Source: Flavobacteriaceae bacterium (GTDB lineage: Bacteria; Bacteroidota; Bacteroidia; Flavobacteriales; Flavobacteriaceae). Taken from it: a stretch of 64,000 nt of DNA. Location of the stretch: assembly GCA_029938265.1 (NCBI GenBank), contig JAOZVI010000001.1, forward strand, positions 1-64,000. The letters run 5' to 3'. Under the pieces are notes generated by a model that did not search any database, had not been told where the DNA came from, and was given only the letters and a program-made list of their open reading frames with translations. Shown piece after piece: positions 1 through 17,629 of the stretch. The translations under genes and the position numbers were made by a program. Each line of letters starts with the position of its first letter. Position 1 is the stretch's first letter.

Positions 1-1
1 T

Positions 2-61
2 GTAATTAAAAATTCAGATGATATTACCGTTGATGAATTACCACCAAGTGGATTTATGTAG
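2..61 (+). CDS. C-terminal end of a gene cut by the window edge
   Basis: An open frame enters from the left edge and stops at TAG 59-61, giving a 19-residue tail that ends in DELPPSGFM. A stretch such as DDITVDELP resembles the segment after the AAA+ domain in sigma-54-dependent response regulators, but that is a weak impression from 19 residues. The gene converges on the minus-strand radical SAM operon that ends at 165. No clear terminator is visible between them. Confidence 0.35.
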   Translation, partial: VIKNSDDITVDELPPSGFM

Positions 62-164
62 CTTTCACAAAGGAGTTCATGAAAAATCTGTATCAAATTT
101 TTCTAACTTATTTTACTTTATATCAGAGTGTTAACTGTTTTTTGAGGAAGTCTTAATTAATGTA

Positions 165-1463
165 TTAAATACTAGTATTTCTCAATACATAATTAAACCT
201 ACTGTATATCATAAAGTTAACAATGTTTCTCATATTTGTTTTCAAATCAAATGCACGCTTAGTAATAGAAGAAATACTATAAAGGTCTCTATTTGCCTTT
301 ATAGTTGCCTGGCTTAATTGTTCAGCACTCATTAATTTTGGTTTAAAAGTAGCCTGATTGTATCTAAAATCTGGATGATTCCACCAATGTCCATCATAAA
401 GTAATCTATTTTCCTTTTTAAATTGCTCAAATATTTTAGTTCTTGGGTACGGCATTAAAATATTAAAAAATGCTAGTGTTAACTTATTTTTAATGGCAAA
501 TTCTACTGTTTGTTCAATAGTATCAACAGTATCAAAATCATTACCAACCATAAAACTTCCCCAGGTTAAAAATCCGTAGTCTCGTAAAATACTTAATCCT
601 TCTTTATAGCTATTAAAACCCTGAATATTTGGTGATTTATTATACCATTTAAGGGAATTAATATTGATAGATTCAAAACCGATTAAATTACCTATACATC
701 CACTATCTGCCATAAGTTTAAGCAATTCCTTGTCTTTAACCATATCAATACTTGATTGACTTGCCCATTTAATTTTCAGTGGAATAAGTTCCTTAAGAAA
801 AATCTTAAGTTCTGGTTTATTGGCAACCATATTATCATCCACAAAGAGTATGGTTTTTAGCTTATCCTTTTCAATTTCATATAATACGTCATCTATTTTT
901 CGACATTTATGTGAATGATCAAAGAATTGTGAAATACTACAAAATGCGCAATTGAATTTACATCCTCTACTAAATTGTAGAAGTGAAACGGGAAGATAAT
1001 TTTTTCCTTTGAAAATATTTCTATTGGGAAAACATCCTTCTTGTGGAGTTCCGAAAGGTGCCTTATAAATCTTCTGTAGCTTCTGAAGTTTAATATCACG
1101 CATCAATTGTTCCCATATGGGTTCAACATCGCCTAATACAATTGAATCAGCGTATTGAGAGGCTTCCTCTGTCATTAAAAAAACATGCATACCTCCCATT
1201 ATTACTTTAACACCACGCTTTCTGTATTCATTAGATATTTTATAGGATCTTCTGGCGCTAAACGAATCTACCGTAATACAAACAAGGTCTGTTTTTTCAT
1301 CAAAAGGAATCTCTTCAATACGATCATCATATAATACTGCTTCATCAGGCTCCTTAATAAGTCCCGCTATTATAGCTAGTTGCAAAGGCTCCATACTCCC
1401 CTCATTTAGATTATAAGCCGAAATAATATCTCCTAAACCTGGTCTAATTAAAGTTATTTTCAT
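165..1463 (-). CDS. B12-binding-domain radical SAM protein (1 of 3)
   Basis: A 432-residue protein with an N-terminal Rossmann-like cobalamin-binding-type domain (about 1-130; GGMH near 91) followed by a radical SAM barrel. The 4Fe-4S ligands are C168, C172 and C175 in CKFNCAFC, and the usual VDDN motif follows near 208. I see no DxHxxG cobalamin His, which many B12-radical SAM enzymes lack. It is the last gene of the six-gene operon, 28 nt after the previous one. It shares the segment IPLKxKWASQ with the 440-aa neighbour, so the two look like duplicates. Members of this class methylate or rearrange unactivated carbons or form rings; the substrate here is unknown. Confidence 0.88.
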   Translation of the reverse strand: MKITLIRPGLGDIISAYNLNEGSMEPLQLAIIAGLIKEPDEAVLYDDRIEEIPFDEKTDLVCITVDSFSARRSYKISNEYRKRGVKVIMGGMHVFLMTEEASQYADSIVLGDVEPIWEQLMRDIKLQKLQKIYKAPFGTPQEGCFPNRNIFKGKNYLPVSLLQFSRGCKFNCAFCSISQFFDHSHKCRKIDDVLYEIEKDKLKTILFVDDNMVANKPELKIFLKELIPLKIKWASQSSIDMVKDKELLKLMADSGCIGNLIGFESININSLKWYNKSPNIQGFNSYKEGLSILRDYGFLTWGSFMVGNDFDTVDTIEQTVEFAIKNKLTLAFFNILMPYPRTKIFEQFKKENRLLYDGHWWNHPDFRYNQATFKPKLMSAEQLSQATIKANRDLYSISSITKRAFDLKTNMRNIVNFMIYSRFNYVLRNTSI

Positions 1464-1491
1464 CTGTAAATGATTTATTTATTTAAGTCAT

Positions 1492-2814
1492 CTAAAAAAT
1501 ATTTGGTGTTACTCTTTTTTTCACATATCGTCGGTAATGAAAATTTATCCCTAGCGAGAATATTAGCATTGATGGATTTTTCCATAAATTTCTATTAAGA
1601 AGAACCCTATATAATATACTTTTTATAGAGAAAACCTCATTATTGATCCACCAATACATTTCCGTTAATTTTTCAGGAGCTATCTTTTTAGGAATGTGAA
1701 CACATTGAGTTCCGTCAAACTTTCGAAGGTCATCTGTTAACATCCTATTTTGTTTAGCTAACTCTTTATATAATTCTGTTCCAGGAACTGGTGTTAAAAT
1801 ATAAAACCGTGGGATTGGTATTTTGTTTTTATAAATGAACTTACTGGTTTCCCGGATTGAATCTTCAGTATCAAAATCAGTACCAATAATCATTTCTATA
1901 CTGACAGTAATTCCCGATTTAGCTAGAATCCTAATGTTTTTTTCATGATCTTTGGCTTTTAGCCATGGTTTATCTAAACTATCTATCGCTTCTTGTTGAA
2001 TACTTTCTACACCAAAACTCATAAGGTCACAACCAGACTCTCGTACTATTTTCAATAGTTTAGTATTCTGAGCCAAATGAATGATACACTGGCTTGCCCA
2101 TTTCATCTTTAAAGGAATAATTTTTTGGCAAAGTTCTTTAAGGTATTTTGGATTTGAGACAATATTATCATCTATTAAATAAAATCGATTGAACCCTAAA
2201 CGCTTTACTTCTTTTATGTCTTGAATTACTTCATCAACAGGACGGTATAAATATTTTCCTTCATACAAACAGGCAATTGAGCAAAACGAACATGTAAAAG
2301 TACAACCCCGTCCTGCTTGAACAGGCAACATTGAACCAATTTTCTTTTTAGTCAGTAAATCGTATCTGGGTATTGGTAAGTTTTTTAATTCATTAATTGG
2401 ATAATTATACAGAGGTTTAACTGTACCATTTTCCTCATAATCCTGTAACATTTTTGGATAAGAAATTTCAGCATCGCCAATAACAACAGAATCAACATAT
2501 TTCATAGCCTCTTTATAAGCGATAGAAGCCATATAACCACCCATGACAACTAATTTTCCTCTCTTTTTAAATTCTGCGGCAATTTCCAACCCTCTAAAAG
2601 TAGCATGTCCCATACTTCCTATAGCGACAATATCAGCTTCTGTATCGAAATTAATTTCATCAACAACTTCAATAAGTAACTCCACTTGCCAATGAGCGGG
2701 GGTATAAGCTGCCAATAGAGGAAATGCCAATCCTGGAAGGTTTATTTTCCGCTGTTTGCATAATTTCCCATTATCAGCATACTGCGTAGGTTGTATAAAA
2801 AGTATTTTAGGCAT
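1492..2814 (-). CDS. B12-binding-domain radical SAM protein (2 of 3)
   Basis: A 440-residue protein with an N-terminal cobalamin-binding-type domain (GGYM near 92) and a radical SAM core with C171, C175 and C178 (CTFTCSFC). IDDN follows near 215 and a GTDFDTEDS loop lies near 304-312. It is closest to the 432-aa downstream protein (shared IPLKxKWASQ and a TDFDTxDxI loop), which points to a local duplication followed by divergence. Its start overlaps the preceding radical SAM gene by 8 nt, so translation is probably coupled. The substrate is unknown; BchE/HpnJ-type enzymes are the general class. Confidence 0.88.
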   Translation of the reverse strand: MPKILFIQPTQYADNGKLCKQRKINLPGLAFPLLAAYTPAHWQVELLIEVVDEINFDTEADIVAIGSMGHATFRGLEIAAEFKKRGKLVVMGGYMASIAYKEAMKYVDSVVIGDAEISYPKMLQDYEENGTVKPLYNYPINELKNLPIPRYDLLTKKKIGSMLPVQAGRGCTFTCSFCSIACLYEGKYLYRPVDEVIQDIKEVKRLGFNRFYLIDDNIVSNPKYLKELCQKIIPLKMKWASQCIIHLAQNTKLLKIVRESGCDLMSFGVESIQQEAIDSLDKPWLKAKDHEKNIRILAKSGITVSIEMIIGTDFDTEDSIRETSKFIYKNKIPIPRFYILTPVPGTELYKELAKQNRMLTDDLRKFDGTQCVHIPKKIAPEKLTEMYWWINNEVFSIKSILYRVLLNRNLWKNPSMLIFSLGINFHYRRYVKKRVTPNIF

Positions 2815-4177
2815 AATATTCGGCTTCTTTAATTCTCTTTTTGTATTGCTTTGTTACACGATACCCTCCCACAAACATCTTAAAAAGCATTAATGGGCTA
2901 TATGTTGTTAAATATTTTAATATTACTTTTGGGCTATATAAAATTGAAGTATAAGCTTTTAGTATTTCTTTATAGAAATCAGCAACAGATAATTTTGTTG
3001 GTCGAACCGAAATATGCGCCAGATCCCACTGTTCATAATTCAATTTTTCAATAATAATTTGGTCTGCAGCAAAACTAACTTCTGTTTTTGGAAGGGGTGT
3101 TAAAGGCTGTAAATTTACAAAATGGATCCCCAGCAATTTAATCACATCAACCATATTTTTGAAATCGCTTTTATCCCATTCCGGGGGAATAATAATAGTA
3201 GCAAAAACATCCATATTTTCCTTATGTAGAACAGCCATGGTTTGATTGTATATTGAAACTGAAATATTTTTATTGTATTTATCCAATTCCTTATCCGAAA
3301 AACTTTCGAAACCAACTATTACGGTCTTTAAACCAATTTGAGCAAGTTGGTGCATAATATTAGGGTTTTTTGCTATAAAATCAGCTCGACCATAAACCAA
3401 AAAATGCTTATTTATTTTTCGCTTTTTTATCTCTGAAATAAATTCCTGCAGCCATTTTATATCAATCAAAAAATCGTCGTCAACTATATAAATTTCCTTT
3501 TCCTCTATTTGTTCAAGCTCTTGAATTACATTCTGCACTGGTCTTTGATAATAGAGCCCATTTGTAATTACTCTGCAAAAGCAAAAAGAACATTTATATG
3601 GACAACCAAATGATGTTTTGATTAGTGCCACATTCTTATGAAAAATGTAAAAATATTTGTCACGATACTTTGAAACAGAACTTCTGTCAGGGAAAGGAGT
3701 AGTAAAATCCAAATCAGGAAGTGTCAAATCTTCCAATTTATCTCCTTTTCGCAAAACGCCTTGTGGCAGTTCTGTATTTTTATCAATATGATTTAGTAAA
3801 TCTGTAAATATCACAGAAGCATTTCTTATAACACGGAAATCAATCATATCGTTTTCAAAATCCTCAGGACATACTTCACAATGTACTCCGCCAACAATAT
3901 TAATAATATCTTTTGATATACTCTTGGCTATAGTACAGTACCTAATAATTGTTGAAACATTAGTAATATACCCGGTAACACATAATACATCAGGGCTATA
4001 CTCTACAATAAAAGATTCTATAGTTCTTTTTTCAAGAATCATATCTACAATTACAACTGAATCACAATCCCGCTTAAGTGCATACAAAATTTCTAATTCT
4101 AAAGGCTCGACAATCATCAGATGTTGCAAACCAATTGTTTCTGAAGAAGGTTTTGGCCTTACCATTAATATTTTCAT
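2807..4177 (-). CDS. B12-binding-domain radical SAM protein (3 of 3)
   Basis: A 456-residue protein. Residues 1-130 form a cobalamin-binding-type domain with GGVHCEVCPEDF near 96-107, as in many B12-radical SAM proteins. The cluster motif is CPYKCSFC (C192, C196, C199), followed by VDDD near 233. It is clearly more divergent than the other two radical SAM proteins of the operon: it lacks the shared IPLKxKWASQ segment and has TPLPKTE near the C-terminus of the barrel. The start codon overlaps the stop of the upstream GNAT gene by 4 nt (ATGA). Reaction and substrate cannot be read from the sequence. Confidence 0.88.
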   Translation of the reverse strand: MKILMVRPKPSSETIGLQHLMIVEPLELEILYALKRDCDSVVIVDMILEKRTIESFIVEYSPDVLCVTGYITNVSTIIRYCTIAKSISKDIINIVGGVHCEVCPEDFENDMIDFRVIRNASVIFTDLLNHIDKNTELPQGVLRKGDKLEDLTLPDLDFTTPFPDRSSVSKYRDKYFYIFHKNVALIKTSFGCPYKCSFCFCRVITNGLYYQRPVQNVIQELEQIEEKEIYIVDDDFLIDIKWLQEFISEIKKRKINKHFLVYGRADFIAKNPNIMHQLAQIGLKTVIVGFESFSDKELDKYNKNISVSIYNQTMAVLHKENMDVFATIIIPPEWDKSDFKNMVDVIKLLGIHFVNLQPLTPLPKTEVSFAADQIIIEKLNYEQWDLAHISVRPTKLSVADFYKEILKAYTSILYSPKVILKYLTTYSPLMLFKMFVGGYRVTKQYKKRIKEAEYYA

Positions 4178-5181
4178 AATAATACCTCCTTTATTGCATT
4201 TGTGTTTTCTAGTTTTCGCTTATATTCCATTAAAGGGCTGCTAAAAATTAGTAATTTGTTTAGTGCCCAATTACTGTGGCGAGCCTCCATAAATCTAGAT
4301 TGTGGCATACCTCCCATTCGCATTTTAGGGATTTCTGCTGTTTGCCCTAACTCTATAAATTCTGATTTACTCTCAATACCATCCTTTATCAAACTTGCAA
4401 GTAATCCCAAATAGGCACCATTTGTTTTATTCTGATTATAATCAATTCCTCCCAAAAAGAAATAATATATATCATTATTTATAAGACTTATATTCCATCC
4501 AATAATTAAATCCTCTTTAAAACAAACCAGTAGATTAAATTCCTTAGGAAGATTTTGGAAAAACTTAAGACTAAGTTTCTCTAATTTACTACGGCTGCGC
4601 TTATACACCTCTATATATAACTTATGCATTTCTTTAGTAAAATCTTTACACTTCATTTTTCGGAACTGTAAATCTTTATTGGCCATATTTATTTGATTCA
4701 ACCTACGTCTGTAGTTTGAGCGAAGTGAGGCCTTATAATTCTCCCATTTGACAAAACGGTTTCTTAATATAATAGTTGGTAAAGTATTCCCTAAAGCATA
4801 TAAACCCGCTTTTGGCTTTTCCTCAAGATTTAAAAACAGAACAAATCCTTTTTCCTCATTATAAATATGATTTTTTAAAGCTTCTATTGCACTTTTATTC
4901 CCAAAAATTCCGGCACTCGACACCGAACAAGGAACTCCTACAATATTCATTTTTATTGGACTTTTAATATTGATAAATGTAAAAATATCAAGTCGTATAG
5001 AGTAAATAATAGCAGCCGAAACCATTTTATCATCTTCAAGACATAAATAATAGCGCTGATTACAGTGATTAAACTTTTCGGTATATTTAAGAAATTTTAT
5101 TTGTTGAAAATAGTTATCAGCAAGCTCATCCCATTGTAATGGAAGATTAATGGAATCTTGAATATTTAAATATTCCAACAT
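4174..5181 (-). CDS. GNAT/FemAB-like acyl- or aminoacyl-transferase
   Basis: A 335-residue soluble protein. The central segment SNYRRRLNQ (about 154-162) and the downstream core with a FLGGID strand and GLLASLIKDGIE helix resemble the Acetyltransf_6/FemAB-like branch of the GNAT fold, which transfers acyl or aminoacyl groups to amines. No signal peptide is seen. Its start codon shares one base with the stop of the preceding GNAT gene, and its stop overlaps the next radical SAM start by 4 nt, so it belongs to the same transcript. The family assignment rests on fold-like patterns rather than a unique motif, and the acceptor is unknown. Confidence 0.65.
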   Translation of the reverse strand: MLEYLNIQDSINLPLQWDELADNYFQQIKFLKYTEKFNHCNQRYYLCLEDDKMVSAAIIYSIRLDIFTFINIKSPIKMNIVGVPCSVSSAGIFGNKSAIEALKNHIYNEEKGFVLFLNLEEKPKAGLYALGNTLPTIILRNRFVKWENYKASLRSNYRRRLNQINMANKDLQFRKMKCKDFTKEMHKLYIEVYKRSRSKLEKLSLKFFQNLPKEFNLLVCFKEDLIIGWNISLINNDIYYFFLGGIDYNQNKTNGAYLGLLASLIKDGIESKSEFIELGQTAEIPKMRMGGMPQSRFMEARHSNWALNKLLIFSSPLMEYKRKLENTNAIKEVLL

Positions 5182-6269
5182 TATAACTTTGTTTCAAATA
5201 TTGCAAACTTTCGGTAAACCTCTGGCTCCTTTCCATAACAACGTTGAAGAATTCGTTTTACAAAAGCTATTGAAGCACGATTTTCTTCAAAAATAAATCC
5301 TCCTTCACAATACTTATAACCTTTCTCAATAAGTGTAGGAAGAGATTTATTAATTAATGCAAGTGCAACTGGACTACGTTGATATTCAGGAATAATTCCA
5401 ATTTCTGTAAAGCGAAATGTATCAATTGATTTTCCAAGTCGGTATTTAAAAACATCAAAAACATTCAAATCACGCTGACCTGAAACCAATTGGTTAAAAT
5501 CGGGATACCACAAAAAGAAACCTATAGGCTTTCCTTTTATTTCAGCAAAGATTAAATTTTCATTATCTAACAGATATTTAAAAGGACTAAACATTTCAAA
5601 ATCCTCTTCCTTATCACGATTTGCCCAATAAGGATGCTCTATAAATGCCTGATTATTAAGTCGAGTGTAAATTGCACTTTCTTCTTTAATATTTCGTTTA
5701 TTCATAAACCTAATATTAAGCCCTTTAAGCTCTCTTTGTATTGTATAAGAGTGTGCCCAAGCTTTATACACTTTCATACTAAAACGAAATGTATACATTT
5801 TGTGACAATTAAGGTCCTTGAAATAATTGGCATAATAATCTGGATTATAAGGAAGTCCAAACATGGGTATTTCATCAAAACGATTTAATAAAATTCCTGC
5901 TCCATAATTTAAATGGCCATTCAAGCCAACAACTACCTTTTTACATTGCGAAAAATGCTTATAAATTTCTTTTTTTATCAAAGCAAAGATCTCTCCTAAA
6001 CCTTTTTGTGCTTCAAAAAATGAAACTTGAATATAGTCCTTTAGTTTATGATCATTAATGAGAGCAAAACGTGCAACGAGATTATTTCCATCCCTTACTA
6101 CAAATTTTTTTATAGAAGAATGTTTGTTAAACGAGCTATTAGAATTCAAAAGCAGCTTTTCAATACTGCTTTCGGTAGCACGAAAATAATTATTTCCCAT
6201 ATAAACATCAGCACTTACCTTTTCAAAATATTTATACGCCGATTTTCCCTCAATAAGCTCTATATTCAT
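5181..6269 (-). CDS. YghO-like GNAT acyltransferase
   Basis: A 362-residue protein resembling the YghO-like group of two-lobed GNAT proteins. The N-terminal lobe has VARFALIND followed by a VSFFEA strand, then the linker pattern GxLNYGAGxLLxxFDExPMxGLPYNPDYY (about 133-165). The C-terminal lobe carries a GIIPEYQRSPVALALINKS segment like an acyl-CoA-binding GNAT motif A, and a late EENR. It is second in the operon, 81 nt after the PLP-fold gene and overlapping the next gene by one base. The substrate is not known; acylation of an amino group made or bound by the neighbouring PLP-fold protein is a guess. Confidence 0.65.
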   Translation of the reverse strand: MNIELIEGKSAYKYFEKVSADVYMGNNYFRATESSIEKLLLNSNSSFNKHSSIKKFVVRDGNNLVARFALINDHKLKDYIQVSFFEAQKGLGEIFALIKKEIYKHFSQCKKVVVGLNGHLNYGAGILLNRFDEIPMFGLPYNPDYYANYFKDLNCHKMYTFRFSMKVYKAWAHSYTIQRELKGLNIRFMNKRNIKEESAIYTRLNNQAFIEHPYWANRDKEEDFEMFSPFKYLLDNENLIFAEIKGKPIGFFLWYPDFNQLVSGQRDLNVFDVFKYRLGKSIDTFRFTEIGIIPEYQRSPVALALINKSLPTLIEKGYKYCEGGFIFEENRASIAFVKRILQRCYGKEPEVYRKFAIFETKL

Positions 6270-6350
6270 ATGTATAAAATTTATAATTTCATGATATGTA
6301 ACACCATATTAATCATGCCATTGTGTGTGTCAAGATTAATCTTAAATGTT

Positions 6351-7502
6351 TTATATAAAATATTCTTCAGGTTTTGGAAAGCCTAAGAACTGCATATATG
6401 ATGATGCTGAATATGATCCTGCATTGCCAAATACTACAATATCACCAATCTTAAGTTCAGGTAATTCTACATTATTTGAAAAAATATCACGTGAATAAGT
6501 TGAACAACCATAAATAGTTGTAGTGACTGTTTTATCAGAAATTAATTGAACTCCATCCCTTATAATCATAATAGGGTGATTAGCGGAATCGGGATAAAGC
6601 AAAGGACGTGAAAACTGAACTGTAGAAGAGTTAAGACCAACCAATAGTTTATTATCTCGTTTCTTTACATCAGTAACATTCGAAACAAAATAACCAGCCT
6701 CACAACCTATTATTCTTCCAGGCTCAATTATAAGTTTAATATCTCTGTTAATTTGTTTTGAAACTTCATTCATTAATTGTGTAATTTGAGTATTGAACTC
6801 TGAAAAATCAAACTGTTTTTTTTTATCCTCAGAAACACCAAATCCTCCTCCAAAATTTAAGTATTCCAAATTGGTAAAATCTCTGGCTATATCAATTAGC
6901 TCTTTATAACAATTAATAAAATAGTCAATGTTAAAAATATCAGTTCCAACATATAAATGCAAACCTGAAATTTTTGATTTATCGCTAATATTATTAATTT
7001 CTTCCTTAGTAAAACCTAATCTGCTATTCTTGCCAATAAAGTAACCTGCACGTGTAGCGTATGGTTTTACATTATCCCCAATATTACAACGTATTCCTAC
7101 TGATTTTTTAGGAAATAATTTCAACCATAATTCAAGTTGATTTGGTGAATCCAAATTTAGTTGAACGCCATAACTTTCTGCTTTTATAATTGATTTTGCT
7201 GATAGTGCAGATGATGTAAGAATTATCTCTTGATCTCTATACCCAACTTTATGAGCAGCTTCAAGGTGCAAAATAGAATTGACAAATATATTAACTTTTT
7301 CTTCTTTTACAATACGAAGAAATTGAGAACTAATATTTGCCATTGAAGCAAAATGAATGGATTTATTTTTATACGAAATGTTCTGAAAAATACGGCACTG
7401 ATTTCTAATCTTCTGACTGTCATAAACATAGTATGAGTCAAATTCATCTTCTGCTTTACTTTCAATAAAAGAAAGAATATCTTTTTCCAAAACCATTTTC
7501 AA
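6351..7502 (-). CDS. Type III PLP decarboxylase-fold protein lacking the PLP lysine
   Basis: A 383-residue protein with the full architecture of the diaminopimelate/ornithine decarboxylase family: an alanine-racemase-like barrel followed by a C-terminal beta domain. Family motifs are recognisable: YVGTD in place of HxGS (184-188), GGGFG (218-222), EPGR (260-263), a CSTYSRD specificity-loop equivalent (C333 and D339), and AGSYSAS with Y364. In the YAVKAN-equivalent position the protein reads FASMAN, so the lysine that forms the PLP Schiff base is Met54 (ATG codon, plus-strand positions 7341-7343). It may therefore be a binding or regulatory pseudoenzyme, or use PLP differently. It is first in the six-gene operon. 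An AAG-to-ATG sequencing error is the trivial alternative. Confidence 0.82.
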   Translation of the reverse strand: MKMVLEKDILSFIESKAEDEFDSYYVYDSQKIRNQCRIFQNISYKNKSIHFASMANISSQFLRIVKEEKVNIFVNSILHLEAAHKVGYRDQEIILTSSALSAKSIIKAESYGVQLNLDSPNQLELWLKLFPKKSVGIRCNIGDNVKPYATRAGYFIGKNSRLGFTKEEINNISDKSKISGLHLYVGTDIFNIDYFINCYKELIDIARDFTNLEYLNFGGGFGVSEDKKKQFDFSEFNTQITQLMNEVSKQINRDIKLIIEPGRIIGCEAGYFVSNVTDVKKRDNKLLVGLNSSTVQFSRPLLYPDSANHPIMIIRDGVQLISDKTVTTTIYGCSTYSRDIFSNNVELPELKIGDIVVFGNAGSYSASSYMQFLGFPKPEEYFI

Positions 7503-7990
7503 TATTTTAGTATTCTTTATTTAATAACTAAATTTACGAATTTATCCATAATAATTTTTAGATATCAGTAATTATATTTTCTACTCCCATTGTATTTGTT
7601 TATATCCGTTTTTTTTTTTTTTGACTTTTGCAATTGAAATAGTATGACACAGTGCTTTGCCTTCAATTATTACAACATCATGAGAAAGAAGAAAAGAAAG
7701 TTGAAAGATATCAACAAAAGGTTGATTTTTAGCACATACCAAAAAGGCCTATTTTCGGGGTTAATGAAATAATTCAAAAAAAATGTGTTTGGCCATCAGT
7801 AAAGTTAATATACTTGGTCACAGTATAATTCCTCTTTATTTATTAGTTGTTGATGCTGCTTTAACATACGTTAAATCACATAAATTATTAGTTTTAATAT
7901 ATGCACTTAGAGTATAGCGCAAGAGAAAAAGAACCAGCTCTAAGTAGAAGAAGTTTCACATTTTAAGTATTCACACTAGTGAAATTATAA
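7503..7990. other. Intergenic stretch without a convincing gene
   Basis: This 488-bp stretch separates the PLP/GNAT/radical SAM operon from the acylase gene. It must hold the operon promoter, but I see no clean minus-strand TAnnTTTG box. It contains a run of 14 T (7609-7622) and two short plus-strand frames: 7643-7774 (43 codons, basic middle) and 7783-7917 (44 codons, hydrophobic). Neither resembles a known peptide family. It could be decayed coding DNA, since the rest of the window is much more compact. Confidence 0.5.
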
Positions 7991-10345
7991 TTATTTTTTC
8001 GGTTCTAAGATCAATTTATCTTTTGATCTTTCGATCTCTTCTTTATTTAACATCATTTTATAGAAACCACCCTCTAAATATTTTTGCGCCTGATTTTTGT
8101 AATGTTTGCTAAATACATTGCCCGATTGACCGGTGGGTAAGATTGCAATACTATTTTCAACATCGCTAAAATCAATGATTCTACGTGTAGAAGGGCCTGC
8201 ATTTACTTCATATTTTCCGATATTATTAATAGAAAAATTTTGGTTATTCAGTACTCCATTCCCACCATTTGTCTTGAAGGGACCAATATTAAAAATATTT
8301 TTTAATATTGGTACTTTATCAAAAGCATGTTTGTGAGTTACTGAAACTGCTTTATCCCATGTCCATTGTTGAATATCTTCTCCAAATTGTTTTTCCAATG
8401 CAGTAATTGTTTCATGAAATGATTTTGTGAAAATTTCATCTCTGTTTTCTTTAATGTCTTTTGTTGTGATATCATTCCACCAAACAGATTTTCTCATTAG
8501 AATTTGTTTGGCAATTTGGCGATGGTATAATTTTGTTCCTAAAAATTGTTGAAACCCTTCCTCTCCCATCTCATCGGCAAAAGTATTCTCAATGAAACGA
8601 TATATAAATTTAGTATAGATTGTTGGTGCTGTCAAACTTGTTTTATAATCCCCTTCCCAATTATTTAAAATATTTATTGCTATTTTTTCGTTCTCAGAGA
8701 GATTCGCTTTTGAAAGATTTTCAATAACAACAGAAACCAGATCCGAAACAACTGCAGACTTATCATCAATAATCATTTTTTTAACATCCTCTTTGTCAAA
8801 ATCATCTTTTGGCTGTAAGATATTTACAATTCTTTTTGCTCTATTTTCAGGTACATAATAGCCGGGATAATACACACCTTGAATAGCATCAGGCTGATTA
8901 TTTGCTGAATACACATAACCCCAAGGTGGGTTTATCGCTTGTGGATTGTTCTTAAAGTCAATATAATTAATTTGATCATCAATACCGTTTCCTCCATCAA
9001 GAATAAATTTAGTATTTAAATCAGTATCTCGGGTATAAAGTTTTGCTGAAGCAAACCATGCAATATTATTTTTTGAATCTCCATACATTATATTTAAACC
9101 GGGTGCGATGATCTTAGATGCTCCTTTTTTAAATTCATTTAAAGAATTAGCATGAGATATTTGATAAGATGCATACAGAATTTCATTTTTTAATTCGGGA
9201 TTTGTATAGATCCAATCCATAGCAATATTCTTTTCTTCACCTATCATATCAATAAAATCATTCATGATGGGTCCGTGTTTTCCTACCTTTACTTCAAAAA
9301 CAACATCTTCACCATCTTTAACTTTAATTGTTTCTCTTCGTTTTTGGTATTCTGCTTTATCGGGTTCTTCATAAAAATCAACATCATCATTTGCTAACAT
9401 GGTCAAACCATAAGCATAATTTCTATTGTGACCTAATAATGGAAAAGGTGTCAATCCCAGATTAAATCCATAAATTTCAAAATCAGGGGTTACAATATGC
9501 GATTGAAACCAAACAGCAGGTTGTGCAAAACCAATATGTGGATCATTTGCGAAAATTACCTTATTGTTTTTAGTTTTTTTAGCCCCAATAACCCAACTAT
9601 TACTTCCAATAAATGGCGGTATTTTCGTGTTTTGAAAAATATCATTAGCGGAAGCAGAAATTGAACTTGCAATATCGTTCTTACTTTTTTGATTATAATT
9701 TTCAATCAAAGTAGCTTTAGGATTTGTCTTTATATCTAAATCTGCTAAATAAGTTGCACCCAATTTATCTTTAATATTTGTTAATAACGGATCTGTTTTA
9801 TGCGCCATTGCGAAACTAAAGCCCATATAACCAAATACATTATAAATATCATTAAGGGTATAATTTTCTTTGTCTATCCCTATTAATCTAAACTCTATGG
9901 GAGTTGTTCCTTCTTCAATAAACTGATTGATTCCATTTAGATAAGCCATTGAAAGTTTATAATATTGACTTGTGGTATCTAATTCATTTATTGCATTTTT
10001 AGATGCTGTCTCAATACCTAAACCTCTAAAAAATTTATCTGTTTTAATCAGTTCTTTTCCAAATAACTCTGACAGTCTTCCCGGAGCAATTCTTCTCAAT
10101 AATTCCATTTGCCACAATCTGTCCTGGGCATGTACATAGCCCAATGCCACATATGCATCATTTTTATTTTGAGCATAAATATGGGGTACACCAATGTCAT
10201 CATAATAAACTGTTACTTTATCTTCTAAATTGTTTAATTGAAGTTTTCCACTATAAACAGGCTTATTTCTTTGTATAAAAAACCAACTTCCAATAGCTAA
10301 TAATAAAATAATTACTAAAAGTATCTTAAGAATTCTTTTGATCAT
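7991..10345 (-). CDS. Penicillin acylase family Ntn-hydrolase
   Basis: A 784-residue precursor of the penicillin/acyl-homoserine-lactone acylase family, which hydrolyses amide bonds of acylated small molecules in the periplasm or at the cell surface. A hydrophobic N-terminal segment (about 5-24) acts as signal or anchor. The alpha chain covers about 30-245. The autocleavage site lies in GSNSW, with Ser248 expected to become the N-terminal nucleophile of the beta chain. The family pattern FANDPHIG follows near 265-272. It has its own promoter-like box (10363-10370) and stands alone between the intergenic stretch and the act operon. The natural substrate is unknown. Confidence 0.9.
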   Translation of the reverse strand: MIKRILKILLVIILLLAIGSWFFIQRNKPVYSGKLQLNNLEDKVTVYYDDIGVPHIYAQNKNDAYVALGYVHAQDRLWQMELLRRIAPGRLSELFGKELIKTDKFFRGLGIETASKNAINELDTTSQYYKLSMAYLNGINQFIEEGTTPIEFRLIGIDKENYTLNDIYNVFGYMGFSFAMAHKTDPLLTNIKDKLGATYLADLDIKTNPKATLIENYNQKSKNDIASSISASANDIFQNTKIPPFIGSNSWVIGAKKTKNNKVIFANDPHIGFAQPAVWFQSHIVTPDFEIYGFNLGLTPFPLLGHNRNYAYGLTMLANDDVDFYEEPDKAEYQKRRETIKVKDGEDVVFEVKVGKHGPIMNDFIDMIGEEKNIAMDWIYTNPELKNEILYASYQISHANSLNEFKKGASKIIAPGLNIMYGDSKNNIAWFASAKLYTRDTDLNTKFILDGGNGIDDQINYIDFKNNPQAINPPWGYVYSANNQPDAIQGVYYPGYYVPENRAKRIVNILQPKDDFDKEDVKKMIIDDKSAVVSDLVSVVIENLSKANLSENEKIAINILNNWEGDYKTSLTAPTIYTKFIYRFIENTFADEMGEEGFQQFLGTKLYHRQIAKQILMRKSVWWNDITTKDIKENRDEIFTKSFHETITALEKQFGEDIQQWTWDKAVSVTHKHAFDKVPILKNIFNIGPFKTNGGNGVLNNQNFSINNIGKYEVNAGPSTRRIIDFSDVENSIAILPTGQSGNVFSKHYKNQAQKYLEGGFYKMMLNKEEIERSKDKLILEPKK

Positions 10346-10362
10346 AAATATTGAATTTTATC

Positions 10363-10370
10363 CAAATATA
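10363..10370 (-). promoter_or_regulatory. -7 promoter box for the acylase gene
   Basis: On the minus strand this reads TATATTTG, a perfect match to the Bacteroidota -7 consensus TAnnTTTG, 18 nt upstream of the acylase start codon. I found no clear -33 TTTG at ideal spacing. Confidence 0.5.
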
Positions 10371-10497
10371 GATTAAATAAAAAAAACCTCAATAAGATCG
10401 AGGTCAAAAAGTTGATTTTTTAGTTAGTAGTAGAATAATTATGTAACAAATATAACAAAAAATATTCTCTTCTAACTTATTTTTTGTTTTTTACCAT

Positions 10498-10532
10498 AAA
10501 AAAATCACTAAAAAATTTAGTGATTTTTTTTT
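10498..10532 (-). terminator. Terminator of the act operon
   Basis: A perfect 11-bp inverted repeat (AAATCACTAAA at 10502-10512, TTTAGTGATTT at 10516-10526) with a 3-nt loop sits 31 nt beyond the actF stop. The A-run before it becomes a T-run on the minus strand. The T-run on the other side means it could also work on the plus strand. Confidence 0.8.
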
Positions 10533-10562
10533 AAATATTGTAAATTCAAATAAGATCTGTAT

Positions 10563-11879
10563 TTAATAGTGATATATTTCACTTTCTTTCATAAACGGAT
10601 TTCCTTTTGCATGTAAAGGTGCTTTTGTTAAAGCTGTAAAAACTACAAAAATGAAAAGTCCGAGGAAAAATGCAAGTGAAGCAATTTCAGGAATTCCAAA
10701 ACTCCAATGATTTCCAACTGTAGCAGGAGATATTAATTGAAATATATCCATATAATGACCTATTAAAATAAGCATTCCTGCAGTTAAAACAAACCAAGGA
10801 GTACGTTTAAAATCACTATCCATCAAAATCAAAAATGGGAAAACAAAGTTTATTACGATCATCCCAATAAAAATTGGTTGATAAGAACCTAATAATCTAG
10901 GCATGAAATAAGCCGTTTCTTCGGGAATATTAGCATACCATTGCAACATAAATTGATCAAAGAAAAAATATGCCCAAAAAATGCTAAAACCAAACATATA
11001 TTTTGCAAGATCATGTATGTGACTATCATTTACAAATGGTATAAATCCTTTATGTTTCAAATAAATTGTAACCATTGCAATTACTGTAATTCCTGATACG
11101 ATCATACTAGAAAATACATAGAAAGAATATAATTGACTGTACCAGTGAGGATCTAATGACATTAACCAATCAAATGACATAAATAGTTCAAAAATTGCAA
11201 AGATTACAATAAAGATTATCGCAAAATTGAAATTTTTCTTATAAATAGAAATATCATTGGATGTATCTAAAGCAATTGAATTTTTACGCAATATCCATCT
11301 GAAAATATTATAAGCAAATAAATAGATAAAACCCCTTATCATCCATCCTGACGTATTTAACCACCAACTTTTACCATCAATTATAGCATCATAGTTTTCA
11401 CTTGTTGGGTCAAAAGTACCATCAGCCATCCAAGCATACATATGATTAAAATGCATTCCTGAAGCTAAAATAAAGATAAAAAGTAAAATTGAACCCGGTA
11501 AAATATAAGCTGTTATTGCTTCCATCACTCTAAAAAGTACAATAGACCATCCTGCCTGCGCTGCCCATTGAATAGCATAAAAAACCAAAACAAGTACTGC
11601 TATCATCAAAAAGAAAAAAGCAGGTATAAAGAAAGCTGTCCACGGTCTGTTTTGTGCCTGATGTAAAGCGTGTTCTAAATGACTTTGCTCTTCTTCAGCA
11701 CTTATTTGGGCAGTAGCCTCATGAGTATCAGTTTCATGTGCTTCATCAGCATGATGCAACATTTCTTTAACGTCATCAGTTGTTTTTGGTGCAGTAAAAA
11801 AACCGTATCCCATACCTAAAGCACCCAATATTATTAATACTAAAGAAAACGTTTTTAATTTGCTTGAAAATGTATACAT
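10563..11879 (-). CDS. actF: Alternative Complex III subunit ActF (membrane quinol oxidoreductase subunit)
   Basis: A 438-residue polytopic membrane protein with about ten hydrophobic helices, matching the NrfD-like ActF subunit of Alternative Complex III (quinol:cytochrome c oxidoreductase). A His/Glu-rich, probably disordered insert lies at about 38-80 between the first two helices. The motif FELFMSFDWLMSLDPHWYS (about 226-244) is typical of ActF. With ActC it forms the membrane arm that binds menaquinol. It is the last gene of the operon, followed by a strong terminator. No cytochrome oxidase gene follows, although coxBA often do in related genomes. Confidence 0.92.
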   Translation of the reverse strand: MYTFSSKLKTFSLVLIILGALGMGYGFFTAPKTTDDVKEMLHHADEAHETDTHEATAQISAEEEQSHLEHALHQAQNRPWTAFFIPAFFFLMIAVLVLVFYAIQWAAQAGWSIVLFRVMEAITAYILPGSILLFIFILASGMHFNHMYAWMADGTFDPTSENYDAIIDGKSWWLNTSGWMIRGFIYLFAYNIFRWILRKNSIALDTSNDISIYKKNFNFAIIFIVIFAIFELFMSFDWLMSLDPHWYSQLYSFYVFSSMIVSGITVIAMVTIYLKHKGFIPFVNDSHIHDLAKYMFGFSIFWAYFFFDQFMLQWYANIPEETAYFMPRLLGSYQPIFIGMIVINFVFPFLILMDSDFKRTPWFVLTAGMLILIGHYMDIFQLISPATVGNHWSFGIPEIASLAFFLGLFIFVVFTALTKAPLHAKGNPFMKESEIYHY

Positions 11880-11918
11880 TTTTCTAGATATTTTACTTTT
11901 GTTTAATTTTTATAATCC

Positions 11919-12479
11919 TTATTTCAACAATTCAGCTCTTAAACTTTCAACATACTGCACAACTTGCCAACGTTCATTGTTAGTCAATTGAGAAGCATGT
12001 GATCCCATCATATTTCTACCATGCATAATTACATGATAAATACTGCCTTGTGTTATTTCTCTATCTTTATAATTAGGTACTCCTAAAAATGTTTCATTAA
12101 TCATTAATATACCTTGACCATCTCCTTTATCTCCATGGCAAATTGCACAAAATATTGTGTATAATTCTTTTCCTTTGAGTAAATTTTTATCCGTTAATTT
12201 AATTGGTGACATCATAGAATCTTTTGCCATTTGATAACCGGGTTCAGTATTTGGATATTCATAGGGCACAATACCTCTTGAAATTGTTCCCTCTACAGGG
12301 AGTTGTGCTGAAATACCATTTTTAAAAATAGGGTTTTTTGTATAGGTATCATAAGCAACGGCATCATACATATCTGTATCGCCCATATATTGTACTTTTC
12401 TATTTGTATTACTATCGTTGCACGAAGTAAAAACAATTACAAGTACTAAAAAGTAAGTTATTTTTATAAAATTCTTCAT
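11919..12479 (-). CDS. actE: Alternative Complex III subunit ActE (lipoprotein cytochrome c)
   Basis: A 186-residue monoheme cytochrome c. The N-terminus is a lipoprotein signal with lipobox FTSC (Cys20), so it is anchored on the periplasmic face. The haem motif is CAICH (C111, C114, H115) followed by GDKGDGQG, and the likely sixth ligand is a Met in HGRNMMGSH near 153-161. It is the electron exit side of the complex, passing electrons from ActB/ActA to soluble cytochrome c or an oxidase. It lies 39 nt before actF and 43 nt after actD. Confidence 0.93.
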   Translation of the reverse strand: MKNFIKITYFLVLVIVFTSCNDSNTNRKVQYMGDTDMYDAVAYDTYTKNPIFKNGISAQLPVEGTISRGIVPYEYPNTEPGYQMAKDSMMSPIKLTDKNLLKGKELYTIFCAICHGDKGDGQGILMINETFLGVPNYKDREITQGSIYHVIMHGRNMMGSHASQLTNNERWQVVQYVESLRAELLK

Positions 12480-12522
12480 CGCTTTTATATATTGCTGAGC
12501 AAATTTTTAAATTCTAATATTA

Positions 12523-13044
12523 TTATTTTTCAGTTACTTTTAATTCAATTGCTCCTGTTTGTTTTAAAAAGTCGGCCAATTGATCTTCATTACCATCCAT
12601 AGAAACTTCCATTACAAATTTATCATCAGTTGTTCTTGGATCAGGATTACTTGCTGTTTGAAATGGCCAGATCTTACTTCGCATATAAAAAGTAATTACC
12701 ATTAGGTGAGCGGCAAAGAAAACTGTCAGCTCAAACAATATTGGTACAAATGCAGGCATATTTTCAGCAAAACTAAAATTTGGTTTACCTCCAATATTTT
12801 GTGGCCAATCTACAATCATCATATAATTTAACATCCAAATAGCAAAGACAAACCCAATTACACCATAGATGAATGATGTGATGGCGATACGGGTTCCTTT
12901 TAATCCCATGGCTTTTTCAAGACCATGAACCGGAAATGGAGTATATACTTCCTCAATATGATGATTTGCTTCACGAGTTTGCCTTACAGCTTCTAAAAGC
13001 ACATCGTCATCATCATACATTGCTTGAATTACTTTATTACTCAT
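12523..13044 (-). CDS. actD: Alternative Complex III subunit ActD (DUF3341)
   Basis: A 173-residue membrane protein of the ActD/DUF3341 family. It has a soluble N-terminal part with VYTPFPVHGLEKAMG (about 34-48), the DUF3341 hallmark, two transmembrane helices (about 55-78 and 104-125), and a C-terminal soluble domain ending in a predicted ferredoxin-like fold (DDKFVMEVS to the end). ActD is a structural subunit next to ActC and ActF with no known cofactor. It lies within the act operon with short gaps on both sides. Confidence 0.92.
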   Translation of the reverse strand: MSNKVIQAMYDDDDVLLEAVRQTREANHHIEEVYTPFPVHGLEKAMGLKGTRIAITSFIYGVIGFVFAIWMLNYMMIVDWPQNIGGKPNFSFAENMPAFVPILFELTVFFAAHLMVITFYMRSKIWPFQTASNPDPRTTDDKFVMEVSMDGNEDQLADFLKQTGAIELKVTEK

Positions 13045-13083
13045 TTTAAATTATTTTATCAATTATAAAAATTGTTAATTTTT

Positions 13084-14472
13084 TTATTTATTATTTCTGG
13101 CTCGCTTATATCCATCTCCTGAAGCTTTCAATATTGATTTTACTTCTGCTTGTGCTACTACAGGAAATGTTCTTGCATATAATAAAAACAGTACAAAGAA
13201 AAAACCTATAGTTCCAATATAGATACCTATATCAACAAAAGTTGGTGAAAACTGTGCCCATGTAGAAGGTAAATGACCTCTACTTAAATTGATAACAATA
13301 ATATCAAATCTTTCAAACCACATACCAATATTGATTAATATTGCCATGATAAAGGACACTGTAAAATTTGTTCTTAATTTTTTAAACCACAACAATTGAG
13401 GAAAAATACCATTACAGAATATCAGTATCCAAAAAGCCCACCAGTACGGTCCGGTTGCGGCACCTACAGATAAGTAAGTAAAATCTTCATATGAACTTCC
13501 CGAATACCATCCAACAAAAAACTCTGACAAGTATGCAACCATAACGATACCTCCTGTTAACAAAATTACTTTGTTCATGTTTTCAATATGAAGTCTGGTA
13601 ATATAATCTTCAAGATTAGAAACCTTACGCATAATAATCAATAATGTTTGTACCATAGCAAAACCAGAAAATACAGCTCCAGCAACAAAATATGGAGGAT
13701 ATATTGTACTATGCCATCCAGGTATCACAGAAGTAGCAAAATCAAATGATACTATTGTATGAACTGAAAGTACTAAAGGTGTAGCTAAACCTGCCAACAC
13801 CAATGATACTTCTTCAAAGCGTTGCCAGTCTTTAGCAGTACCACTCCAACCAAAACTCAATAAACTATATATTTTCTTTTGAAATGGTTTTGTAGCTCTG
13901 TCTCTGATCATTGCAAAATCGGGTAATAAACCAGTGTACCAAAATACTAATGATACAGATAAATATGTAGAAATTGCAAATACATCCCATAATAATGGCG
14001 AATTAAAGTTTGTCCATAATGAACCAAATTGATTCGGAATTGGCATTACCCAATAAGCATTCCAAACTCGTCCCATATGAATTACAGGAAAAATAGCAGC
14101 TTGAATTACGGCAAATATTGTCATTGCTTCTGCAGAACGGTTGATACCCATTCTCCATTTTTGACGGAATAATAATAATACTGCAGATATTAATGTACCC
14201 GCATGACCAATACCTACCCACCAAACAAAATTGGTAATATCCCAGGCCCAGTTAATTTTATTGTTTAAACCCCAAACACCTATACCTGTTCCAATGGTAT
14301 ATGCTATTGCTCCTATTCCCCATAGAAGAGCAAAAGAGGCAATACTAAAAACAACCCACCACCAAGTGTTGGCTTTTCCTTCGATAGGCGCAGCTATATC
14401 ATTTGAAATATCATGATAAGTTTTATCTCCTAAAATTATCGGTTCTCTAATTGGTGCTTCGTAATGAGACAT
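13084..14472 (-). CDS. actC: Alternative Complex III subunit ActC (NrfD-like)
   Basis: A 462-residue NrfD/PsrC-family integral membrane protein with about ten helices. The family start MSHYEAPIREPIILGDKTY precedes the first helix at about 37-60. Features such as NFVWWVGIGHAGTLISA (about 82-98), HMGRVWNAYW and SFDFATSVIPGWH are typical of ActC and include residues near the quinol site. It is the main menaquinol-binding membrane subunit. The gene sits between actB and actD in the normal ACIII order. Confidence 0.94.
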   Translation of the reverse strand: MSHYEAPIREPIILGDKTYHDISNDIAAPIEGKANTWWWVVFSIASFALLWGIGAIAYTIGTGIGVWGLNNKINWAWDITNFVWWVGIGHAGTLISAVLLLFRQKWRMGINRSAEAMTIFAVIQAAIFPVIHMGRVWNAYWVMPIPNQFGSLWTNFNSPLLWDVFAISTYLSVSLVFWYTGLLPDFAMIRDRATKPFQKKIYSLLSFGWSGTAKDWQRFEEVSLVLAGLATPLVLSVHTIVSFDFATSVIPGWHSTIYPPYFVAGAVFSGFAMVQTLLIIMRKVSNLEDYITRLHIENMNKVILLTGGIVMVAYLSEFFVGWYSGSSYEDFTYLSVGAATGPYWWAFWILIFCNGIFPQLLWFKKLRTNFTVSFIMAILINIGMWFERFDIIVINLSRGHLPSTWAQFSPTFVDIGIYIGTIGFFFVLFLLYARTFPVVAQAEVKSILKASGDGYKRARNNK

Positions 14473-14526
14473 AATTTTATATAAAATTTATTAATTGTTC
14501 TTTATTTTAAAATCGCTAAATATTAA

Positions 14527-17500
14527 TTAAGCTTCTTTTGTGTTCTTTACTTTTAATTGGTAAAAAACATTTGGTTTTGTTCCCACAAAATCCAATAATT
14601 TAAAACTTCTATCGTCTTTCTCTAATTGGGCAACTTTACTAATTTTATCATTTACATCTCCAAATACTATCGCATCAGTAGGACAAGCATTTGAGCAAGC
14701 TGTTTGGAATTCTCCATCAGCTACAGGTCTTCCTTCTTTTTTAGCATTCAATATGGTTAATTGTGTCATTTGAATACACATAGAGCATTTTTCCATCACA
14801 CCACGAGATCTTACAACAACATCTGGATTCAATACCATCCTTCCTAGATCATTGTTCATGTTAAAATCAAACTCATTATTATCAAAATATTTAAACCAGT
14901 TAAATCTTCTAACTCTATAAGGACAGTTATTAGCACAATAACGAGTACCTACACAACGATTGTAAGCCATTTGATTTTGACCTTGAAGTCCATGAGATGT
15001 AGCTGCAACCGGACAAACAGTTTCACAAGGAGCGTGATTACAATGCTGACACATAACTGGTTGGAACGATACTTCAGGAGCATCTGAAGGTTGAATTTGT
15101 GCATTAAAAAAATCTCCAGTACCAAAAATACCTTCCTCTTTACCTTTTTCAACAGTCATATCACTTGAGTAATAACGATCAATCCGCATCCAGTGCATGT
15201 CTCTACTAACTCTTATTTCATGTTTTCCAACTACAGGTACATTATTTTCTGCATGACAGGCAATGACACAAGCTGCACAACCAGTACATGTTGCTAAATC
15301 AATTGATAGATTAAATCTTGTACCTAAATCATCAAATTTTTCCCATAGATCAACCTTATCCTGGGTTACTTCTTGATGATCTAACGAAAATTTAGGTGGC
15401 GAATTCCATTCATCTTTAGGTTTAGAAACAAAATCAGCTAAAGTTGTTTCTTTAGTGATCTCACCCTCTCTACCCATTATCGTGTGTTGTAATTGAACAC
15501 AGGCAAATTCGTGTTCGCCTGAAACTTTTTCTATGCTTGCATTATGGAATATACCTTTTGCAAATGGAAAAGCATTAACACCAATACTCATTTCTTCTTG
15601 TAATCCTTTTTCTCCATATCCTAAAGCCAAAGCTATAGAACCCGGAGCCTGACCTGGCTGAATATAAACAGGTACTTTTTCAATAGTAACACCATTAGCA
15701 GTAATATTTACCATATCACCATTCAACGCTCCATTATCAACTGTTCGGTTTTCCAATCCCAATCTTTCTGCATCAATTCTGGAAACTAACAAATAATTAT
15801 CCCAAGTGGTTCTTGTAATTGGATCAGGCAATTCTTGTAACCAAGGATTATTGGCCTGTTGACCATCTCCAATTCCTGCTTTTGTATAGACAGTCAATTC
15901 AAGATCACTTCCTTTTATTTTTGAAAGCGCAGAACCTGCTGCACTAATATCTACATCATTAACTAAATTTTCTTCATTAGCTACGGATACTGAAAAAGTA
16001 CCATCGTGTAGTGCTTGATTCCAGGATTTACCTCCTAAAATGTTGTTATTCCAATTCCCTTTTAGATAATCATAATACGTTTCATTACTACCCAACCATT
16101 TTAATAAAGTTTCCTGAAACTGACGTGTATCAAATAATTTATGAATGGTTGGTTGTGTTAAACTATATTGACCTTTTTTGATCAATACATCATTCCATGT
16201 TTCTAAATAATGTGGTATTGCTGCAACATATTGAGAAGCGTTTGTCGTTTCATTGTCACTCATTGCAAAACTTACACTAAGCTTTGTTTTTTTTAACGCT
16301 TCAGTAAATTCTTTTGCATTTGGTAATGTATATGCAGGATTAGTATTGTGCGTAATTATAGCACCAATTTTTCCTGCTTTCATATCAGCTGTCAACTGTG
16401 TAACTTTAGCATCATCTCCATGGCGAATATTTCTTGTATTCACCACATCAATAACACTACTTTGTATTGCTTTGTTGATTTGTAAAGCTAATAATTGTGC
16501 ATTTTTATCTTGAATTCCTGTAACAACAACAGCATTTCCTTCAGCAGCTTTAATTTGTTTTGCAATATCTTGAATAGCGGTATTAAGTGGTGACATTTCG
16601 CGAGTTGCAACACCACTAACAATTGCCTGATATAATTTTATTAATGCATTTACTTGTTGAGAAGGTTTGATCATCACTCTTTTATCGGCATTCGCTCCCG
16701 TTAAAGACATATTCGATTCAAATTGAATATGCTGTGACATTTTTCCATTTTTAGGAATTCTACCTTTTGCATATCCGGTAGAAAAACCTCCACCTTGCCA
16801 ATCTCCTAAGAAATCTGCCCCAACTGAAACAATTACTTCAGCTTTAGAAAAATCGTAATCAGGTAAAGATCTTTTACCATACATTTCTTTCATGGCATCT
16901 AAAGCAGCACTTTCTGATATTGCATCATAAACAACATGCGCAACATTACTATATTGTTCTGAAAATTTCTTTACCAGACTACTTGTTGAAGGACTGGCAC
17001 AAGTTCCGGTTAAAAAAACTATTTTTTCTCCATTTCCTTTTAATTCATTTAATTTAGCAAGTACTTCTGTGTCAAATTTATTCCAGGTAATTGCTTCACC
17101 TTTGGCTTTAGGGCCTTTTAAACGATTGTTATCATATAGCGACAAAACTGATGCCTGTACTCTAGCATTTGTACTGCCAAATGATGATTCTTTATTAGGT
17201 TCAATCTTAATAGGGCGACCTTCTCTAACTTTTATCAAAACATTTGCAAAGTCAATACCATCAGCAATAGTAGTTGCAAAATACTCCGCTACTCCGGGTG
17301 TTATATCATCCGGTTTAATTACATAAGGAATTGATTTAATTACCGGACCCTCACATGCAGCTAATGATGCTACTGCAGTAGAAAAACCAACATACTTTAA
17401 AAAGTCTCTTCTACTTGTAGAACTTGAATCTAATGTGTCTTTATCTCCCAAAAATTGATCAGCAGGGATTTCTTCTACAAATTCTTTTTGTTTTAGCTTT

Positions 17501-17565: not shown

Positions 17566-17629
17566 ATTTATTGTTTGTTTTATTTTATATTGGATTAACA
17601 TCCAATTTATATTCTTTTTATCTAACTTC

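Follow-up and report, generated by a model that had tools for sequence, protein, structure and literature searches.

The window, that is the whole stretch of 64,000 nucleotides analysed here (positions 1 to 64,000 of contig JAOZVI010000001.1 from a Flavobacteriaceae bacterium), contains a group of genes that lie on one strand and are separated by short gaps. The first gene encodes a homologue of type III decarboxylases that has no lysine at the Schiff-base position (hereafter K-less). It is followed by a GNAT gene, a FemAB-like GNAT gene and three genes for B12-binding radical SAM proteins (Table 1). Since the last of these genes is situated at the contig end, the operon may continue past the window.

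The reading frame of the K-less gene spans 6351-7502 on the minus strand and has 383 codons when counted from TTG at 7502, with the stop at 6351. Orthologues start at the residue equivalent to Met3, and because of this the start codon is probably ATG at 7494-7496, which would give a protein of 381 aa with the Schiff-position methionine as Met52. Note that residue numbers in this work count from the TTG at 7502, as in the original prediction, where this residue is Met54.

Table 1. Coordinates of the K-less gene, its active-site features and the other genes of the operon
Feature	Position	Strand	Basis or remark
K-less type III (AR-fold) decarboxylase homologue, 381 aa from the probable start	6351..7496	(-)	ORF call, Pfam, alignment, Foldseek, VIA-align
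Met54, Schiff-base lysine position	7341..7343	(-)	ATG codon; alignment, orthologue codons
Phe73, equivalent of ODC Asp88	7284..7286	(-)	column D/E in 25/25 Lys-bearing homologues
His79, equivalent of ODC Glu94	7266..7268	(-)	column E in 25/25 Lys-bearing homologues
GGG, Gly218-220, phosphate-binding glycine loop, kept	6843..6851	(-)	alignment
EPGR 260-263, ring-nitrogen and phosphate site, kept	6714..6725	(-)	invariant in 14 K-less members
TYSRD (335-339), clade signature in place of the catalytic Cys-Glu/Asp motif	6486..6500	(-)	alignment
GNAT acyltransferase-like, constant partner adjoining the K-less gene in Bacteroidota	5181..6269	(-)	
FemAB-like / Acetyltransf_6 GNAT protein	4174..5181	(-)	
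B12-binding radical SAM, HpnR-like, intact CxxxCxxC	2807..4177	(-)	
B12-binding radical SAM, intact CxxxCxxC	1492..2814	(-)	
B12-binding radical SAM, intact CxxxCxxC	165..1463	(-)	at contig end

A hidden precursor peptide upstream of the K-less gene was considered, and nothing supports it, because positions 7503-7990 hold short chance ORFs only and the copy at locus L086 has almost no intergenic space. The Rfam scan of positions 1-12000 gave no RNA element match, and the promoter and terminator scan stayed at chance level. Further upstream, past a penicillin amidase gene (7991-10345) and a few kb from the K-less operon, there are genes (10563-17649) that resemble a respiratory operon for alternative complex III (Act-type).

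Fold and the Schiff-base position

Both Pfam domains of the superfamily are found in the window protein above the gathering score: Orn_Arg_deC_N with 72.9 bits (cut-off 23.4) and Orn_DAP_Arg_deC with 53.6 bits (cut-off 23). The C-terminal sheet domain is present, giving a two-domain architecture. Among NCBIfam models the best is LysA TIGR01048, whose 169 bits remain under the cut-off of 297.9; TIGR03099 (dCO2ase_PEP1) reaches 109 bits against a cut-off of 478, and no NCBIfam model was returned above its cut-off for the three clade members tested. Confidence in the AlphaFold model is moderate (mean pLDDT 69). Its best matches in both Foldseek (E 4e-20) and VIA-align are diaminopimelate decarboxylase (DapDC) structures, and VIA-align against 3C5Q gives Z 28.5 and rmsd 4.8 over 324 aligned residues. 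The fold is thus that of solved superfamily members. Judged by sequence and model, the window protein is a homologue in the type III (AR-fold) Orn/DAP/Arg decarboxylase superfamily.

PLP enzymes of fold type III are defined by their lysine. Where lysine-bearing homologues have YAVKA- or similar, the window protein has FASMAN, and the ATG codon for Met54 (plus-strand 7341-7343) was found as originally predicted, together with the GGGFG, EPGR and C-terminal AGSY motifs. The orthologous clade with methionine at this position, proposed as a check, does exist: the codon is ATG in 10/10 intact Bacteroidota genes, the window's included. None of the close orthologues carries the lysine that would have spoken against the prediction. 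Intact Bacteroidota orthologues are 44-73% identical to the window protein. Pairwise dN/dS among the ten intact genes is 0.04-0.16, with dS beyond saturation in all pairs. These values indicate that the window gene and its orthologues are under purifying selection. Because there is a methionine-bearing orthologous clade under purifying selection with no lysine-bearing orthologue, our results agree with the earlier suggestion that selection acts on a non-standard role.

One could suppose that Met54 is a sequencing error or belongs to a decaying pseudogene of a single genome. Decay does occur in this clade: the remnant copy L079 (G836:C477, ~2360-3030) has lost its N-terminal half and contains two in-frame stops, so that at least one lineage no longer has the function. 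However, ten independent intact genes all have ATG, they appear to be under purifying selection and they belong to full-length operons, which reduces the chance of error or decay at the window gene to practically nil.

Replaced and kept active-site residues

Active-site columns were compared with 25 Lys-bearing homologues. The ODC residue numbers given for window columns are homology assignments, which we take from the alignments and general knowledge of the family. Roles of the ODC residues used in the column comparison are from PMC5518511.

The lysine is not the only residue that has changed; this simpler description is ruled out by co-substitution at the K69, D88, E94, C360 and D361 columns. 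Specifically, in the clade Lys69 is replaced by Met or Val, Asp88 by Phe, Cys or His, Cys360 by Thr and Asp361 by Tyr or Phe, and the Glu94 column has His with two exceptions, the Gloeothece member (Asp) and L104 (Glu). In the window protein Thr335 occupies the column where 25/25 Lys-bearing homologues have Cys, and Tyr336 the next one, where these homologues have Glu, Thr or Met. Thr335-Tyr336 thus takes the place of the partner subunit's catalytic Cys and the acidic residue after it, and the C/D specificity loop that had been described as kept is lost. Cys333 is two residues off the catalytic column, at a position where relatives have Ser, Asn or Arg.

GGG, E-x-G-R and Tyr, which make up the phosphate and ring-nitrogen site, are retained. 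Arg154, Gly235-237, Glu274, Gly276-Arg277 and Tyr389 in ODC numbers, i.e. R138, G218-G220, E260, G262, R263 and Y364 of the window protein, are found in 14/14 K-less members, in which only 47 columns are invariant. Moreover, TxSRD, His79 and Tyr184 are nearly invariant over three phyla; L104 has GSG for GGG and VLQND for TYSRD. The His-to-Tyr change at position 184 was considered as a part of the loss and discarded. Tyr in place of the second His of HxYxG[ST] is common to Lys-bearing BtrK-like proteins, so Tyr184 is not specific to K-less proteins.

The earlier statement that the rest of the fold is conserved therefore has to be restricted to the phosphate/ring-nitrogen site, since five residues of the lysine or catalytic side are jointly replaced by conserved new ones. 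As read from the alignment, the chemical side of the site is rebuilt as a set and the cofactor-phosphate side is held constant. This pattern argues against canonical decarboxylation as well as against simple decay.

Relatives and gene neighbourhoods

The GTDB contig scan revealed two orthologues, 67 and 70% identical to the window protein, in a Bacteroidetes MAG and an uncultured Chitinophagaceae. Seven further intact copies and one decayed copy were found in relatives of these two genomes and of G795. In the sampled genomes the gene is uncommon and has a patchy distribution: 59 relatives of the window's genome contain no orthologue, and in the remaining 394 genomes of the Bacteroidota sample a single additional K-less protein, L104, was recognised at the score threshold applied. 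GNAT was also tried as a phylum-wide marker of the operon and rejected, as it gave just distant family members besides the window's own. The host also encodes, on a different contig, a LysA that does bear the lysine (YAVKAL), and the window protein is ~28-30% identical to it.

In tblastn against plasmids, relatives were found to which the window protein is closer than to LysA. FATMAN is present in the relatives from Mesorhizobium huakuii 583 plasmid p_3 (33.5% identity, annotated 'alanine racemase'), Sinorhizobium meliloti GR4 pRmeGR4a (32.7%, annotated 'diaminopimelate decarboxylase') and S. medicae T10. The relative on a plasmid of the cyanobacterium Gloeothece verrucosa PCC 7822 has FATVTN with Val (GTA) at the Schiff-base position. 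A solitary Bacteroidota protein (L104; L118, G151:C42:21974-23083), which has the same fold but is more divergent, reads YAAMCN, with Met. Viral contigs contained no relative, and matches in phages were just ordinary decarboxylase-like proteins of 21-26% identity.

In the maximum-likelihood tree of 39 rows the 14 K-less proteins form one group (100/99). When columns around the Schiff-base, D88/E94, H197 and C360 sites were removed and L104 was added, the 15 K-less proteins from three phyla, all with Met or Val, were still one group (98/96). The nearest Lys-bearing rows in this column-stripped tree are Bacteroidota LysA, with weak support (80/88). The K-less group is separate from LysA, and in both trees also from dCO2ase_PEP1/BtrK-like proteins. 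Because the K-less proteins group together without the active-site columns, the lysine was most simply lost once and long ago, with caution about the long branches of L091, L104 and L089. We suggest that the K-less proteins form an ancient and so far unnamed clade within the Orn/DAP/Arg decarboxylase superfamily, without the internal aldimine. The clade is undescribed in the open-access papers searched.

The operon is conserved in nine Bacteroidota loci. The first five genes of the window operon recur in L033, L034, L078, L085 and L086; in L033 and L078 these are joined by a methyltransferase and another, different radical SAM protein. At L085 (2376-3902) the third B12 radical SAM gene appears to be split in two ORFs by a frameshift or an assembly error. 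The L087 copy has the first radical SAM gene only, within the stretch read, and at L080 the contig end cuts the second GNAT gene. Between the K-less and GNAT genes of L087 (8756-9439) and L088 (8983-9663), from two related genomes, there is a gene for a secreted-looking protein of ~227 aa that probably contains a beta-helix repeat. The most divergent Bacteroidota member, L077, combines the K-less gene with a GNAT gene (39%) and a SPASM-type radical SAM gene.

Radical SAM genes adjoin also the rhizobial and G795 copies, and all their CxxxCxxC motifs are intact. Rhizobial K-less genes are preceded by a SPASM radical SAM gene and a B12 radical SAM gene; with ApyD, a RiPP-associated radical SAM family, the B12 enzymes of the rhizobia reach 298 and 239 bits, under its cut-off of 750. 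On Sinorhizobium plasmids (L090 4302-5634, L092 4290-5619) a QueA-like (Queuosine_synth) and a weak PqqD-like protein are encoded before the radical SAM genes, an unusual mix for a biosynthetic cluster. The Gloeothece gene lies between an asparagine-synthetase-like and a hypothetical gene and has no radical SAM gene nearby. A protelomerase-family gene is present near this Val-bearing gene (L091 13865-15226; Gloeothece verrucosa plasmid Cy782202, recorded as linear). L104 (G151) stands alone, with no radical SAM gene within ~9 kb. In none of the operons examined is a Lys-bearing homologue linked to the K-less gene.

Because the lysine is absent from relatives in three phyla, and these genes mostly adjoin radical-SAM biosynthesis genes, its loss is best read as no error but as a redesign of the active site that is old and has been selected. 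Radical SAM, GNAT and related neighbours make it reasonable to place the protein in amino-acid- or peptide-derived specialised metabolism. Since neighbours differ between phyla, a single common reaction is not assured.

Possible roles and known systems

Our preferred reading, to which we give a probability of about 0.5, is that the protein has a re-purposed active site: it would bind a phosphate-bearing ligand in the old cup and work with new residues in a radical-SAM pathway. We favour this over a plain scaffold because five catalytic-side residues are replaced together by conserved ones and the phosphate/ring-nitrogen site is kept. The internal aldimine would have been given up, and the ligand held in the former cofactor cup would most simply be a B6 vitamer bound non-covalently, either PMP or PLP as a substrate adduct. 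His79, Tyr184 and Thr335-Tyr336-Ser337-Arg338-Asp339 of the partner subunit may stand in for the lysine. If this is true, the protein catalyses one step in a radical-SAM, GNAT-assisted route to a small amino-acid- or peptide-derived product. It is important to note that the methionine side chain is inert, that His79 is Asp in Gloeothece and Glu in L104, and that folding or dimerisation alone could account for the retention of the glycine loop and EPGR, all of which speak against this reading. A lysine-less site of this kind is feasible because there are precedents: the K36A variant of YggS, a fold-III protein, still binds PLP non-covalently in the same site (PMC9601805), and ColD/E1 are working PMP enzymes with the lysine replaced by His (PMC8987622). 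Our data suggest that the protein is probably an enzyme, and standard lysine-mediated decarboxylation appears very unlikely.

The main rival to the re-purposed site is a non-catalytic binding protein or scaffold that holds a ligand, carrier or partner enzyme and might, for instance, offer the radical SAM or GNAT proteins a substrate or a B6 vitamer. Every catalytic residue of the lysine side is lost, the gene is strictly linked to GNAT and radical SAM genes, and YggS/PLPHP is a fold-III protein apparently without catalytic activity (PMC9601805). However, near invariance of TxSRD, His79 and Tyr184 over three phyla exceeds what a scaffold needs, and we regard such a role as possible but doubtful. 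Of the options named in the original prediction (scaffold, regulator, PLP-independent enzyme), the regulator is the least supported, because there is no linked Lys-bearing decarboxylase and the Cys-side half-site that is given in trans (Cys to Thr, Glu to Tyr) is also lost. Here the K-less protein would be a prozyme, forming a heterodimer with a decarboxylase such as LysA in a manner similar to antizyme inhibitors. Lys-less ODC homologues do exist in eukaryotes, e.g. planarian DjODC6 with Lys69Ser (PMC5574924), the active site of this fold is at the dimer interface and the host genome has its own LysA, yet the low identity to that LysA is a further argument against this, and we consider it improbable.

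Another lysine could in principle form the internal aldimine in an otherwise ordinary PLP enzyme, as YggS K36A binds PLP through neighbouring lysines (PMC9601805). No substitute lysine was found in the clade: K280 is the only clade-invariant lysine and, being equally conserved in Lys-bearing LysA, it is no replacement. As equivalents of D88, E94, C360 and D361 are gone too, this explanation is very improbable. Returning to the re-purposed site, a wider and tentative proposal is that the clade represents a class of fold-III enzymes without internal aldimine, in which a non-covalent B6 vitamer or other phosphorylated ligand and new acid/base residues are used. It would be the fold-III counterpart of ColD/E1 and would act alongside radical SAM enzymes of the B12 and SPASM types in a multi-phylum biosynthetic pathway.

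The clade lets one ask what a fold-III active site does without the internal aldimine. In rhizobial and other genomes it also exposes genes misannotated as 'diaminopimelate decarboxylase' or 'alanine racemase', and the K-less gene serves as a marker of the gene clusters around it.

Diaminopimelate decarboxylase (LysA, TIGR01048; 2QGH/3C5Q, 1KNW, 2YXX) is the best NCBIfam and structural match, sharing the two-domain AR fold, the GGG loop, E-P-G-R and the C-terminal Tyr. Unlike LysA, the K-less clade has Lys, Asp/Glu, Glu, Cys and Glu replaced, at ~30% identity. Carrier-protein-linked decarboxylases of the BtrK type (BtrK, dCO2ase_PEP1/TIGR03099 and plasmid relatives) have the same Tyr for the second His in HxYxG[ST], but they keep Lys, Asp/Glu, Glu and Cys and form their own supported group in the tree. 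Antizyme inhibitors and inactive ODC homologues (AZIN1/2, DjODC6) have the decarboxylase fold with catalytic residues lost; they are eukaryotic, regulatory and tied to antizyme, whereas the window protein is bacterial and operon-borne and has kept the whole phosphate/ring site. Lys-less members of the superfamily are thus already known in eukaryotes. What appears to be new, as not found in the open-access papers searched, is a bacterial clade in three phyla, the pattern of co-substitution and the linkage to radical SAM genes.

PLPHP/YggS is a PLP-binding, apparently non-catalytic fold type III protein that naturally keeps the lysine and has a single domain (PMC9601805); the window protein differs from it by the C-terminal sheet domain. 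The sugar 3-dehydratases ColD/E1/SpnQ are similar to the K-less clade in natural replacement of the PLP lysine, in their case with the cofactor site kept and new chemistry (PMC8987622). They belong to fold type I, have Lys changed to His and use proven PMP, whereas the window protein is of fold type III, has Lys changed to Met and its cofactor is putative.
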